Positions 27,642 through 30,220 of a stretch of 36,413 bases of DNA are shown in pieces (position 1 is the stretch's first letter; each line of letters starts with the position of its first letter). Under the pieces are notes generated by a model. That model saw nothing but the letters and a program-made list of their open reading frames with translations, had not been told where the DNA came from and did not search any database. This stretch comes from Lachnospiraceae bacterium (GTDB lineage: Bacteria; Bacillota; Clostridia; Lachnospirales; Lachnospiraceae). A program made the position numbers and the translations under genes. The stretch spans positions 1 to 36,413 of the forward strand of contig JAFZSQ010000009.1 of NCBI GenBank assembly GCA_017619295.1. Direction: 5' to 3'.

Positions 27642-28394
27642 ATGAACTTCATTCAAGTAACCAAAGATAATCTTGAAAAGGAACACATATGTTGCGCAAT
27701 TTCAAACAACAAAGATGTTCAGGTTTCATCAAAGAAAGAATGGCTTTCCGACAGGTTTGAAGACGGTCTGGTCTTCCTGAAAAGCGAGGAAAGAGGAAAA
27801 TGCTTTATAGAATATATTCCTGCGGAGAATGCCTGGATTCCGATTAACGCACCGCAGTATATGTATATTGATTGCCTTTGGGTATCGGGTTCACTGAAGG
27901 GGCACGGATATTCTACGGAACTTTTGAATGCATGTATCGAAGACAGTAAGGCAAAAGGAAAGAAGGGCCTTTGTATTCTTTCAGCTCAAAAGAAACTTCC
28001 GTTCCTTTCAGACCCTAAGTTCTTGAAGTATAAGGGATTTAGTGTTTGTGATGAAGCGGATAATGGGATTCAGCTATACTATCTCGCCTTTGATAAGACC
28101 GCGGAGACACCGTATTTTAAGGATTGTGCGAAGCATCCGCATGTTGAGGAGAAGGGCTGGGTTTTGTACTACACACATCAGTGTCCATTCAACGCGAAGT
28201 ATGTTCCTATAGTGGAGAAGACTGCCAAGGACAATAACATATCATTCAAAGCGATAAGATTGACGACCAGAGAAGAGGCTCAGAACGCCCCCACTCCAAT
28301 AACAAATTATGCATTGTTTTGTGACGGAGAGTATGTTACGAACGAGCAGAATAATGATAAGAAGTTCTTAGCTCTGGCCGTCAAAAGAAAATAA
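27642..28394 (+). CDS. GNAT acetyltransferase with C-terminal YoaP domain
   Basis: A 250-residue protein. The N-terminal GNAT domain (about 1-150) has YIDCLWVSGSLKGHGYSTELLNACIEDSKAKG, the acetyl-CoA-binding loop region. The C-terminal YoaP-like domain (about 165-248) contains a thioredoxin-like CPFN segment and ITNYALFCDGEYVTNEQ. AGGAGG lies before the ATG. Likely last gene of the WYL-led operon; its stop abuts the strong promoter of the next unit. Confidence 0.9.
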   Translation: MNFIQVTKDNLEKEHICCAISNNKDVQVSSKKEWLSDRFEDGLVFLKSEERGKCFIEYIPAENAWIPINAPQYMYIDCLWVSGSLKGHGYSTELLNACIEDSKAKGKKGLCILSAQKKLPFLSDPKFLKYKGFSVCDEADNGIQLYYLAFDKTAETPYFKDCAKHPHVEEKGWVLYYTHQCPFNAKYVPIVEKTAKDNNISFKAIRLTTREEAQNAPTPITNYALFCDGEYVTNEQNNDKKFLALAVKRK

Positions 28395-28397
28395 TTG

Positions 28398-28426
28398 TTG
28401 ACAAAGTTTTTTTAATTTGTTAAAGT
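28398..28426 (+). promoter_or_regulatory. Near-consensus sigma-A promoter of the RNHCP/rsgA unit
   Basis: TTGACA (28398-28403), a 17-base spacer and TAAAGT (28421-28426). It gives a start near 28433 and so a leader of about 350 bases before the RNHCP gene. It begins only four bases after the previous stop codon. Confidence 0.88.
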
Positions 28427-28471
28427 GCACCTAGTAACACAAATCTAAAAGAAAGCGAGGTAGTCATAATA

Positions 28472-28537
28472 ATGAGTGTTAAGAGAACAGAGATTGTAAC
28501 TGAATATGACGTGAAGACCTCGGTATGTATTTTTTAG
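28472..28537 (+). CDS. Putative 21-residue leader peptide
   Basis: A short frame beginning MSVKRTEIVTEY and ending TSVCIF before TAG, about 40 bases after the predicted transcription start. GCGAGG lies 11 bases upstream of the ATG, a rather long spacing. Its codons 14-17 overlap both alternative RNA pairings, which is why a regulatory leader is proposed. No homology is claimed. Confidence 0.45.
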   Translation: MSVKRTEIVTEYDVKTSVCIF

Positions 28538-28571
28538 ATTGGATTAGCTGATATTAAATAATCTGACATTC

Positions 28572-28599
28572 AAAACCGTGGCGTATTTGTCACGGTTTT
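28572..28599 (+). terminator. Putative intrinsic terminator inside the leader
   Basis: The perfect nine-base stem AAAACCGTG / CACGGTTTT has a ten-base loop; its 3' end and flank (TTTTCTT) are T-rich. It sits between the first tiny frame and the second, the place expected for an attenuator. A smaller five-base hairpin follows at 28604-28618. Confidence 0.7.
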
Positions 28600-28671
28600 C
28601 TTATGCCTATTTCAGGCAATTTTCACATCGAAGGTCTTCACAAAAATCTTAAAATATCAAGGAGGTTTTTC

Positions 28672-28710
28672 ATGAAGACAAACAATAATAAAAAGGAGAG
28701 TGCAGCATAA
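28672..28710 (+). CDS. Putative 12-residue leader peptide
   Basis: The frame MKTNNNKKESAA is preceded by an ideal AAGGAGG (28659-28665) six bases before the ATG, a stronger site than that of most real genes here. It ends two bases before a hairpin and 73 bases before the RNHCP start. Such a site on so short a frame is hard to explain except as a regulatory peptide or a remnant of a gene start. Confidence 0.5.
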   Translation: MKTNNNKKESAA

Positions 28711-28783
28711 CCGGGAGGTTTGTTGCGCTCATACAAGTCTCCCAAAAGGATTATTAACCATAAACTTTTAGGAGGACTATCCC

Positions 28784-29212
28784 ATGAACAGGGAGAACAA
28801 AAGAAAGAAATACGAAAAGAATTATTATAAGAATCACCCATGCAACGAAACTTTTGTATGTAAGAATTGCGGAAAGACGGTAGTACCTACAGGAGCAGGA
28901 AGTGATCATAGAAACCACTGCCCTTATTGCCTTCACTCTCAACATCTGGACATAGAGCCGGGAGATAGGGAGGCTGATTGCGGTGGCCTGATGGAACCTA
29001 TTTCGGTATGGGTGAGAAAGAACGGAGAATGGGCAATCATTCATAGATGCAAAATCTGCGGATCTCTCAGCTCAAACAGAATTGCTGCGGATGATAATCC
29101 CATGAAACTTATGTCTTTGGCTATGAGACCAATATCCGCGCCCCCATTTCCCTTGGAGAGAATAGAGGAAATGACCAGACTGATGGGCGGAGACGGTGAG
29201 CTAAAGTGGTAA
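28784..29212 (+). CDS. RNHCP-domain zinc-binding protein
   Basis: A 142-residue protein with three paired-cysteine motifs: FVCKNCGK (C26, C29), the name-giving RNHCP at 43-47 with C46 and C49 (RNHCPYC), and HRCKICG (C89, C92). Spacing fits one or two treble-clef-like zinc sites. The family's function is not established to my knowledge. GGAGG precedes the ATG by eight bases. It shares its transcript with an RsgA paralogue 21 bases downstream, pointing to a ribosome-related role (inference). Confidence 0.9.
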   Translation: MNRENKRKKYEKNYYKNHPCNETFVCKNCGKTVVPTGAGSDHRNHCPYCLHSQHLDIEPGDREADCGGLMEPISVWVRKNGEWAIIHRCKICGSLSSNRIAADDNPMKLMSLAMRPISAPPFPLERIEEMTRLMGGDGELKW

Positions 29213-29233: not shown

Positions 29234-30220
29234 ATGAATAGTACAAATAGTGAATCTATCGGACGAATAAGCGAGATAAGAAAGAACAGCTTTACAATCC
29301 GATATGAAGGAAAGGATTTTCCGGGTAAGTTAAAAGGCAGCTTTTATGAGGAAAGTGCAGACAAACTTCCGGTGGTTGGAGACTATGTAAAGTTTGTTTA
29401 TAACCCACTTGGAGAGTCCATGATTAAAGAGGTTTGTGAAAGAAGGAGTTTTCTTCAAAGACCTGACCAGGCCAAAACTGCAGTTATGCAGTACATGGTG
29501 GCCAATGTGGATTATTGCTTTATAGTAACATCCCTTAATGAAGACTACAGCTACAACAGAATCGCAAGATATATAAGCATAGTCCTTCAGGGAGGTGCCA
29601 CCCCTGTAGTTGTTCTTACGAAGTCGGATTTGTGCAGTAATCCGGGCAGATATATCAGGGAAGTGGAAACCATTTCTGATAAGGCCAATGTCCATGCAAT
29701 ATCAGCATTGTATGGAATCGGGCTGGATGAACTGGAAGAATACATAATCCCGGGAGTCACCATCTGCTTTATGGGTTCTTCGGGAGCAGGTAAATCCACA
29801 CTCCTTAACGCAATTTACGGTAAGGAAGTAATGAAGACATCTGAAATAAGAGAGTCTGATTCCACCGGAAGACATACCACCACCCACAGGCAGTTAATTG
29901 AACTTGAAAATGGGGTGTCAATTATTGACACCCCGGGTATGAGGGAGGTTGGCCTGGCAAGTAGTGAGGAAGGTATAGACAGCGCCTTTTCAGACATTAT
30001 CGAGTTGGAGTGTCAATGTAAGTTCAGCAATTGCAGGCACGATACAGAGCCCGGATGTGCAATCAAAGCAGCCATTGCAAGCGGAGAATTATCTGCAAAG
30101 AGGTATGAATTATATAAAAATCTGGGTAGGGAGAATACAAACAACCATGCTATGAAAAAAGAAATATCCAAATGGGCAAAGGCCTATAAGAAGAGCAACA
30201 AGAAAAATATTTGGGATTGA
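29234..30220 (+). CDS. rsgA: RsgA-like circularly permuted GTPase (ribosome small subunit-dependent)
   Basis: A 328-residue protein. An N-terminal OB fold (about 8-75) is followed by the permuted GTPase: TKSD (129-132, G4), SALYG (G5), GSSGAGKST (181-189, G1), DSTGRHTTTHRQ (G2) and DTPG (232-235, G3). The zinc site follows: C262, C267, H269 and C275 in CKFSNCRHDTEPGC. RsgA matures the 30S subunit. The housekeeping copy in Clostridia usually lies with prpC/prkC and rpe, so this copy, paired with RNHCP and behind a structured leader, may be a specialised paralogue. Confidence 0.92.
   Translation: MNSTNSESIGRISEIRKNSFTIRYEGKDFPGKLKGSFYEESADKLPVVGDYVKFVYNPLGESMIKEVCERRSFLQRPDQAKTAVMQYMVANVDYCFIVTSLNEDYSYNRIARYISIVLQGGATPVVVLTKSDLCSNPGRYIREVETISDKANVHAISALYGIGLDELEEYIIPGVTICFMGSSGAGKSTLLNAIYGKEVMKTSEIRESDSTGRHTTTHRQLIELENGVSIIDTPGMREVGLASSEEGIDSAFSDIIELECQCKFSNCRHDTEPGCAIKAAIASGELSAKRYELYKNLGRENTNNHAMKKEISKWAKAYKKSNKKNIWD

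Follow-up and report, generated by a model that had tools for sequence, protein, structure and literature searches.

Two conserved leader elements in series, probably attenuators, precede an RNHCP/RsgA-paralogue operon in a Lachnospiraceae bacterium

What governs the expression of an RNHCP protein and an RsgA paralogue that follow a leader of 359 bases in a Lachnospiraceae bacterium? The window analyzed here, a stretch of 36,413 nucleotides, carries this leader on its forward strand, and its predicted fold reaches -95.2 kcal/mol, compared with -69.2 ± 5.1 in 100 shuffles. The original prediction had proposed an undescribed attenuator that would respond to translation stress. The attenuator part of the proposal is supported, as the leader is conserved, covaries and lacks an Rfam match; the notion of a single leader has to be given up, as two families of elements lie in series. 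We consider it likely that these are two stall-dependent attenuators of the erm/cat kind, acting on an inducible translation-protection operon. The promoter and the two genes are placed as follows.

28398..28426, + strand: promoter TTGACA-17-TAAAGT (TTGACA at 28398-28403, 17 bp, TAAAGT at 28421-28426), from the sequence scan and relatives
28784..29212, + strand: RNHCP-domain zinc-ribbon protein, 142 aa (PF12647, E 4.6e-40)
29234..30220, + strand: RsgA paralogue, 328 aa (PF03193, E 1.9e-47)

The promoter lies where it had been predicted, though the scan alone is at chance level (3 promoter-like sites versus 2.3 expected). At the equivalent position in 7 of 11 relatives carrying the distal element (family 2, below), a TTGA-17-TA..-type site is the best match, and a weaker promoter-like site was spotted by eye in 2 more. 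Pfam agrees with the earlier naming of both controlled genes; the gene set behind such leaders proved wider, adding a GNAT and a methyltransferase. Pfam names PF12647/RNHCP without a function, and a search of open-licence papers for RNHCP or PF12647 found no relevant publication. Since the AlphaFold2 model of the protein has a mean pLDDT of 67, Foldseek against the PDB gave 0 matches at E ≤ 0.001 and the best E of its sequence against the PDB is 0.41, the fold gives no RNHCP function. The RsgA paralogue retains its GTPase motifs and zinc ligands as judged by eye, and is 35% identical to a second RsgA of the same genome, which looks like the housekeeping copy. Directly upstream of the leader (27642-28394) lies a GNAT gene with a YoaP-like C-terminal domain; its product showed no BLAST similarity at E ≤ 1e-3 to those attenuator-controlled GNATs (below) with which it was compared.

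The part of the leader next to the RNHCP gene (28672-28783) is the proximal element, family 1, and it contains the 12-residue frame with AAGGAGG and the switchable hairpin over the RNHCP ribosome site that had been described, the latter resolving into three alternative helices.

28659..28665, + strand: SD of leader frame 2, AAGGAGG, from the sequence
28672..28710, + strand: leader frame 2, 12 codons, MKTNNNKKESAA and stop, from the ORF list and among 111 family-1 leaders
28698..28730, + strand: helix A:C with a GGGA loop (28698-28712 with 28717-28730), from fold and covariation
28713..28743, + strand: helix B:D, the predicted ON helix (28713-28722 with 28734-28743), from covariation
28736..28778, + strand: helix D:E, the predicted OFF helix (28736-28749 with 28765-28778 in the fold), from covariation and RNAalifold

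In the predicted fold D:E blocks the RNHCP SD GGAGG (28771-28775), with a probability of 0.45 for the aligned register 28738/28775, and B:D is mutually exclusive with both A:C and D:E. The general layout of the family is a frame of 11-12 codons in most members, with [E/D][I/S/L][V/A]x near its end, these codons forming arm A; arm B (CCGGGAGGTTTG) follows directly after the stop in most, and then come C, D (CAAGCCTCCC) and E (CTTTTAGGAGG), the last being the SD of the controlled gene. Window frame 2 has Glu-Ser-Ala where other leaders have Glu-Ile-Val. In 111 of 113 family-1 sequences a short frame with an SD was called between promoter and gene, a tally that leans towards the motif because the frame caller was scored for it. 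In two leaders (L019, L045) the B-D spacer is enlarged and B and D themselves are kept. In five others (L012, L018, L025, L027, L030) the leader frame is closely preceded by what may be a small hairpin (GGCCGTCAGGC, AGCCGAATGGCT or similar) and then TGATTATAAATA.

Family 1 is widespread. Among RNHCP loci from a GTDB contig scan, the best 80 of 525, the element was seen by pattern in 44 and matched by a covariance model of 43 sequences (R1) in 45 at E ≤ 6e-4, 39 of which had been used in building the model; the remaining 35 had no match at that threshold, one of them matching at E 0.006. At order level R1 matched at E ≤ 0.001 in 43 of 392 genomes, the window's own included, and a model of 72 sequences (R2) matched at E ≤ 1e-4 in 24 of 391 class genomes and 12 of 398 phylum genomes, with a few genomes recurring between the sets.

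In the comparison upstream of RNHCP genes that had been proposed as a check, stems and frames are kept and the stems covary. In 44 sequences aligned without structure (alignment A5, from 48 without L008, L019, L045 and L059; A6 also omits L089; the identical L003, L060 and L083 were removed), A:C plus D:E showed 40 double-change cells versus 19.4 ± 3.5, a value reached by none of 500 shuffles; pairs with changes on both sides numbered 11, which 45 of 500 shuffles equalled. With partners slid by +1 there were 35 double-change cells and 13 such pairs, and 57.7% of cells were paired versus 85.4% in the true register. B:D gave 7 double-change cells versus 2.2 ± 1.1 (1 of 500 shuffles), and RNAalifold, unaided, recovered D:E and the base of A:C. 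In the alignment of 72 sequences, which is fitted to the model and so leans towards the structure, A:C plus D:E reached 90 double-change cells versus 34.6 ± 5.0, the +1-slid partners 55 with far lower pairing than the true register, and B:D 16 versus 7.1 ± 2.0; all family-1 shuffles ignore kinship.

By comparison with relatives, the 5' part of the window leader falls outside family 1 and is a separate putative family, family 2, here the distal element (28450-28680).

28455..28461, + strand: SD1 of leader frame 1, GCGAGGT, and 5' arm of stem H1, from sequence, fold and relatives
28472..28537, + strand: leader frame 1, 21 codons, MSVKRTEIVTEYDVKTSVCIF and stop, from the ORF list, with homologous leaders in relatives
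28511..28522, + strand: switch segment GTGAAGACCTCG, with SD1 (28456-28461) or 28632-28641 (helix X) as partner
28572..28599, + strand: terminator-like hairpin AAAACCGTGGC..GTCACGGTTTT with T-rich tail, from the sequence, conserved and covarying in 30 sequences
28632..28641, + strand: arm AGGTCTTCAC, pairing with 28511-28520 (helix X) or, via 28634-28640, with 28673-28679 (helix Y)

All the parts that had been predicted here were recovered: the 21-residue frame, in which Glu-Ile-Val occupies codons 7-9 (28490-28498); stem H1, which pairs 28456-28461 with 28517-28522 (ACCTCG inside frame 1) at a mean pair probability of 0.98; helix X, with 10 perfect pairs; and the terminator hairpin, conserved with its T-rich tail in relatives and absent from the output of a terminator scan of the window sequence, which listed no site. 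Helix Y lies over the start of frame 2.

BLAST found the 5' leader part in 14 of 250 same-family genomes, the window's own included, in some over short stretches only, and a covariance model built from 13 sequences (R3) gave 37 matches in 35 of 397 same-family genomes, the window's own and G001 included. The shared layout comprises SD1 GCGAGGT:ACCTCG, a leader peptide in which an EIV-like triplet is mostly followed by TS[V/A], then the CCGTGG...CACGG hairpin and its T-rich tail, and finally an anti-SD or anti-start arm, which can pair either with the later part of the frame or with the following gene at its SD or start, as in TAGTCTCCA:TGGAGACTA (L188), TAGTCCT:AGGACTA (L192) and GTCTTCA:TGAAGAC (window). 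In 30 sequences the hairpin is paired in 98.8% of cells and 4 of its 8 pairs have changed on both sides; hairpin plus H1 give 16 double-change cells versus 5.0 ± 1.5 in shuffles that ignore kinship. Single-locus folds covered 22 of the 37 matches; stems H2 and H3, judged singly, each beat their shuffles (≤5 of 100) in 8 of the 22 loci, where about 1.3 are expected, and these predicted stems thus appear real for the loci taken together but not for each of them. Downstream of the 37 matches lie an RsgA paralogue of the window type in 10, a GNAT-RsgA fusion in 8 and another gene or none in 17; in the remaining 2 (window, G001) family 1 and then RNHCP follow. Four leaders of this type (L216, L220, L227, L228) carry ..EYL[LM]KTS.. 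without EIV and precede a gene in the 150-aa range, cut short in L220, which we take to be GNAT-like. The model matches at L224, L225, L230, L231, L233 and L234 are weak (E 1.6e-7 to 3.2e-5), the genes behind them presumably encode ABC exporters, and the leader family may be wider than the current family 2.

How a translating ribosome might move these helices was examined by removing the ribosome-covered RNA, up to +16 from the first base of the P-site, the toeprint distance, and folding the remainder. The leader set left out seven leaderless model matches (L132, L137, L140, L141, L159, L161, L162); L029 and L136 yielded no leader, and 109 of 111 leaders were used. Predicted accessibility of the gene SD averaged 0.26 in the free RNA, 0.59 with the P-site on Glu and 0.10 two codons later, with a gain above 0.2 in 68 of 109 leaders; three shuffled sets reached it in 0, 1 and 0 of 60. 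The window RNHCP SD followed suit, with 0.19 in the free RNA, 0.75 with the frame-2 P-site at Glu and 0.19 after it. A ribosome on frame 1 acts elsewhere: helix Y has a probability of 0.99 in the free RNA, 0.00-0.02 with the P-site on codons 1-9 and 0.95-0.99 from codon 10, helix X behaves inversely, and the frame-2 start codon is open at 0.82-0.85 for codons 7-9, 0.46-0.73 for codons 1-6 and 0.35-0.36 in the free RNA or later. Across these positions the frame-2 SD is nearly constant (0.44-0.49), and the RNHCP SD does not respond (0.18-0.19), which is expected if frame 2 must be translated first. In the 22 other family-2 loci SD accessibility is 0.45-0.47 up to the EIV-like codon, 0.25 in the free RNA and 0.21-0.25 from the third codon after it, 10 of the 22 gaining 0.06 or less.

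These folds suggest the following model. By default the operon would be OFF, with SD1 paired to frame-1 codons 16-17, helix Y over the frame-2 start and D:E over the RNHCP SD. Stalling, presumably provoked by an antibiotic-type inducer, would be the trigger: a ribosome halted on frame 1 at or before Glu-Ile-Val would free 28511-28520 for helix X with 28632-28641, and the frame-2 start would thereby be uncovered. A second stall on frame 2, with the P-site near the Glu codon (28696), would open A:C, let B pair with D and release the RNHCP SD. RNHCP, the RsgA paralogue, the GNAT and the methyltransferase could then either act on ribosomes, by protection or rescue, or inactivate the inhibitor. As modeled, the downstream attenuator is translational (SD-blocking) and the upstream one combines a start-blocking arm with a terminator hairpin. 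The predicted folds do not account for how this hairpin is regulated, since it forms in every simulated ribosome state.

That hairpin gives some ground for reading the distal leader mainly as a transcription attenuator, with the start-blocking arm secondary, and its conservation together with the T-rich tail and the covariation described above point the same way, as does Listeria hflXr, which is controlled in this manner according to the part of PMC6310831 consulted. Our search, however, established no antiterminator; the one candidate, a 6-of-7 partial match ACCTCGGT/ACCGTGG, was noticed by eye, the hairpin stands in all simulated states, and relatives, too, have both the anti-start arm and its partner, so we hold this reading to be somewhat unlikely. 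A quite unlikely alternative is that the leaders respond to any general drop in translation, whether through initiation, tRNA charging or a shortage of ribosomes, their frames being counters of ribosome traffic. It would accommodate the fixation of GAG ATT at the codon level and the prediction for family 2 and window frame 1 that the next site is open all the way from codon 1 to Glu-Ile-Val. In family 1, however, early ribosome positions leave the SD mostly closed (mean accessibility 0.28 with the P-site at -7 versus 0.59 at 0, the Glu codon), and a defined stall place is therefore needed there; the gene set, too, has acetyl- and methyltransferases, as in drug inactivation. That these are ordinary upstream frames in an AT-rich leader, arisen by chance, is hardly credible: the promoter scan alone is at chance, but covariation and shuffles speak against it, and so does the recurrence of the four gene families behind matches in distant genomes. 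The idea of a riboswitch or T-box was dropped in view of the missing Rfam match and the conserved leader frames; Rfam 15 at gathering score matched neither the window nor any of 12 related loci, and a permissive threshold gave 7 matches on the leader, each below its own family's gathering score.

For the two-stage stalling model the nature of the stall signal matters. Among the 111 family-1 leaders, found with a caller that favoured such residues, motif position 1 is E in 75, position 2 is I in 80 and position 3 is V or A in 108. Glu is encoded by GAG in 75 of 75 cases and Ile by ATT in 78 of 80; because these codons are nearly fixed, much of the motif may be due to RNA pairing, and we dropped a purely peptide-level reading of EIV. 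The frame across GAG-ATT-GTN is kept, and in most leaders the phase to B differs by one base between those with the stop before B (84) and those that read through it (27). Exact EIV also occurs at the matching place in 9 of the 28 family-2 leaders used for peptide comparison (out of 37, without L224-L226 and L229-L234), where the pairing is different. EIV as an arrest peptide is plausible, and GAGATTGT may be common to both families through common descent.

Comparison also bears on the genes behind the switches. We classed the downstream frames of 75 family-1 matches, all but the window, its same-genus relative and repeats, by BLAST to four reference proteins: RNHCP in 28, a 208-aa GNAT in 26, an RsgA paralogue of about 360 aa in 6, a 246-aa class I SAM methyltransferase in 4 and unclassified in 11. 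Seven of the 11 have no leader and look like chance matches; in the other four (L118, L125, L151, L155) the leader conforms to the family, yet the gene is missing, masked or overlapping. The 33 matches first met in the class and phylum searches, none of them in R2 training, divide into RNHCP 11, GNAT 11, RsgA 6 and unclassified 5. Controlled genes that are related to the ribosome and to modification fit the attenuator idea originally put forward.

RNHCP, RsgA and GNAT appear to form one module because several arrangements join them. In L007 and L009 family 2 precedes a GNAT-RsgA fusion and family 1 then precedes RNHCP; the stand-alone family-1 GNAT shares 33% identity with the GNAT portion of the fusions across 205 aa; RNHCP and rsgA are adjacent and overlapping on a Vibrio coralliilyticus plasmid, and a sequence-diverged pair keeps the same order in L090; and on a Roseburia sp. 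831b plasmid family 2 (E 1.8e-7) lies ahead of a GNAT-RsgA fusion. The methyltransferase, which in Pfam best matches general methyltransferase domains, is counted in because of the RNA alone. An RNHCP-RsgA operon is not the rule, since RsgA lies inside the RNHCP locus, which reaches 3 kb or less on either side, in 5 of 97 (L001, L007, L009, L082, L090; tblastn E ≤ 1e-4), and no constant RNHCP neighbour emerged from a Pfam scan that covered 46 of the 92 proteins downstream and 32 of the 93 upstream. RNHCP occurs in 4 plasmid and 6 phage records. Family 1 itself lies ahead of the GNAT of Selenomonas ruminantium pSRC1 and of an unannotated GNAT-like stretch of Pusillibacter faecalis pMM59_01 whose match falls into two pieces; on a fecal contig labelled as phage it precedes RNHCP.

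A bolder proposal, for which we see nearly balanced prospects with doubt slightly the heavier, is that two unrelated attenuator families with a common Glu-Ile-Val arrest signal mark an RNHCP/RsgA/GNAT/SAM-methyltransferase resistance module against an inhibitor sensed by no known leader peptide. RNHCP would then be a new ribosome-protection protein and the RsgA paralogues a new class of resistance GTPase; the inhibitor might be a natural product that is encountered in gut and rumen and acts on the 30S subunit. A stall-type leader offers a direct handle here, as its inducer is probably what the proteins of the module act on. Through such leaders four gene families, among them the paralogue of a GTPase of 30S assembly, are tied into one module; it was met in contigs from the order, class and phylum searches as well as on a few plasmids, and the two-stage attenuator is a testable design.

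The principle is known; the sequence, gene set and nesting are new. As in ermC and ermB, or cat, a short frame with its own SD, alternative helices and a last helix over the gene SD are found, the stall is predicted near codons 8-9, and mutually exclusive helices, one masking the gene SD, each exceed shuffles in covariation (A:C plus D:E, and B:D). The present elements differ from erm/cat in having no Rfam match, in a leader motif [E/D]-I-[V/A], that of ermC being IFVI, in controlling RNHCP, RsgA, GNAT and SAM methyltransferase genes, and in placing two unrelated elements in series. A dependence of ermB on two leader peptides is reported in the consulted part of PMC8274638. RLR occurs in leaders of hflXr and related macrolide systems (PMC6310831, same part); Arg-Leu-Arg was sought in both window leaders and is absent. 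Within that source, Listeria hflXr (lmo0762) comes closest as a precedent for control of this kind over a GTPase paralogue: a ribosomal GTPase paralogue follows a small-frame attenuator with a terminator, and an intrinsic terminator-like hairpin is likewise present in family 2, conserved and covarying at the sequence level. It differs in concerning HflX, lincomycin/erythromycin, an RLR leader and transcription attenuation, whereas here RsgA and RNHCP are controlled without RLR and the predicted last step is SD release. The Streptomyces WblC/WhiB7 regulon, in the portion of PMC7157823 consulted, also unites antibiotic-induced GNATs, methyltransferases and ribosome GTPases, and names the RsgA paralogues SCO6149 and SCO5211 among pairs with WblC-dependent profiles; control is by a transcription factor there and by leader RNA here. 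The examined parts of a review of context-specific inhibitors (PMC13410324) contain no EIV-type motif, and among the matches listed in searches of open-licence papers (titles and abstract starts) for RsgA, leader peptides, attenuation, GNAT, WhiB7 and Lachnospiraceae none describes the element. Judged by its sequences, the putative attenuator pair is real and conserved, and undescribed within the literature searched.

RNHCP genes were also seen in other settings. In L036, L037, L038, L039, L042, L046, L047, L048, L068, L073 and L087 RNHCP overlaps the end of a gene of about 101 aa, which we take to belong to the CD3324 family, and its SD lies inside a possible hairpin such as GAATCCTC..GGAGGATTC; this suggests a third mode of control, by translational coupling. 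On a Streptomyces plasmid (L177:4947-6417) two RNHCP genes stand in tandem, followed by an FBP-domain gene, presumably FusB-like.
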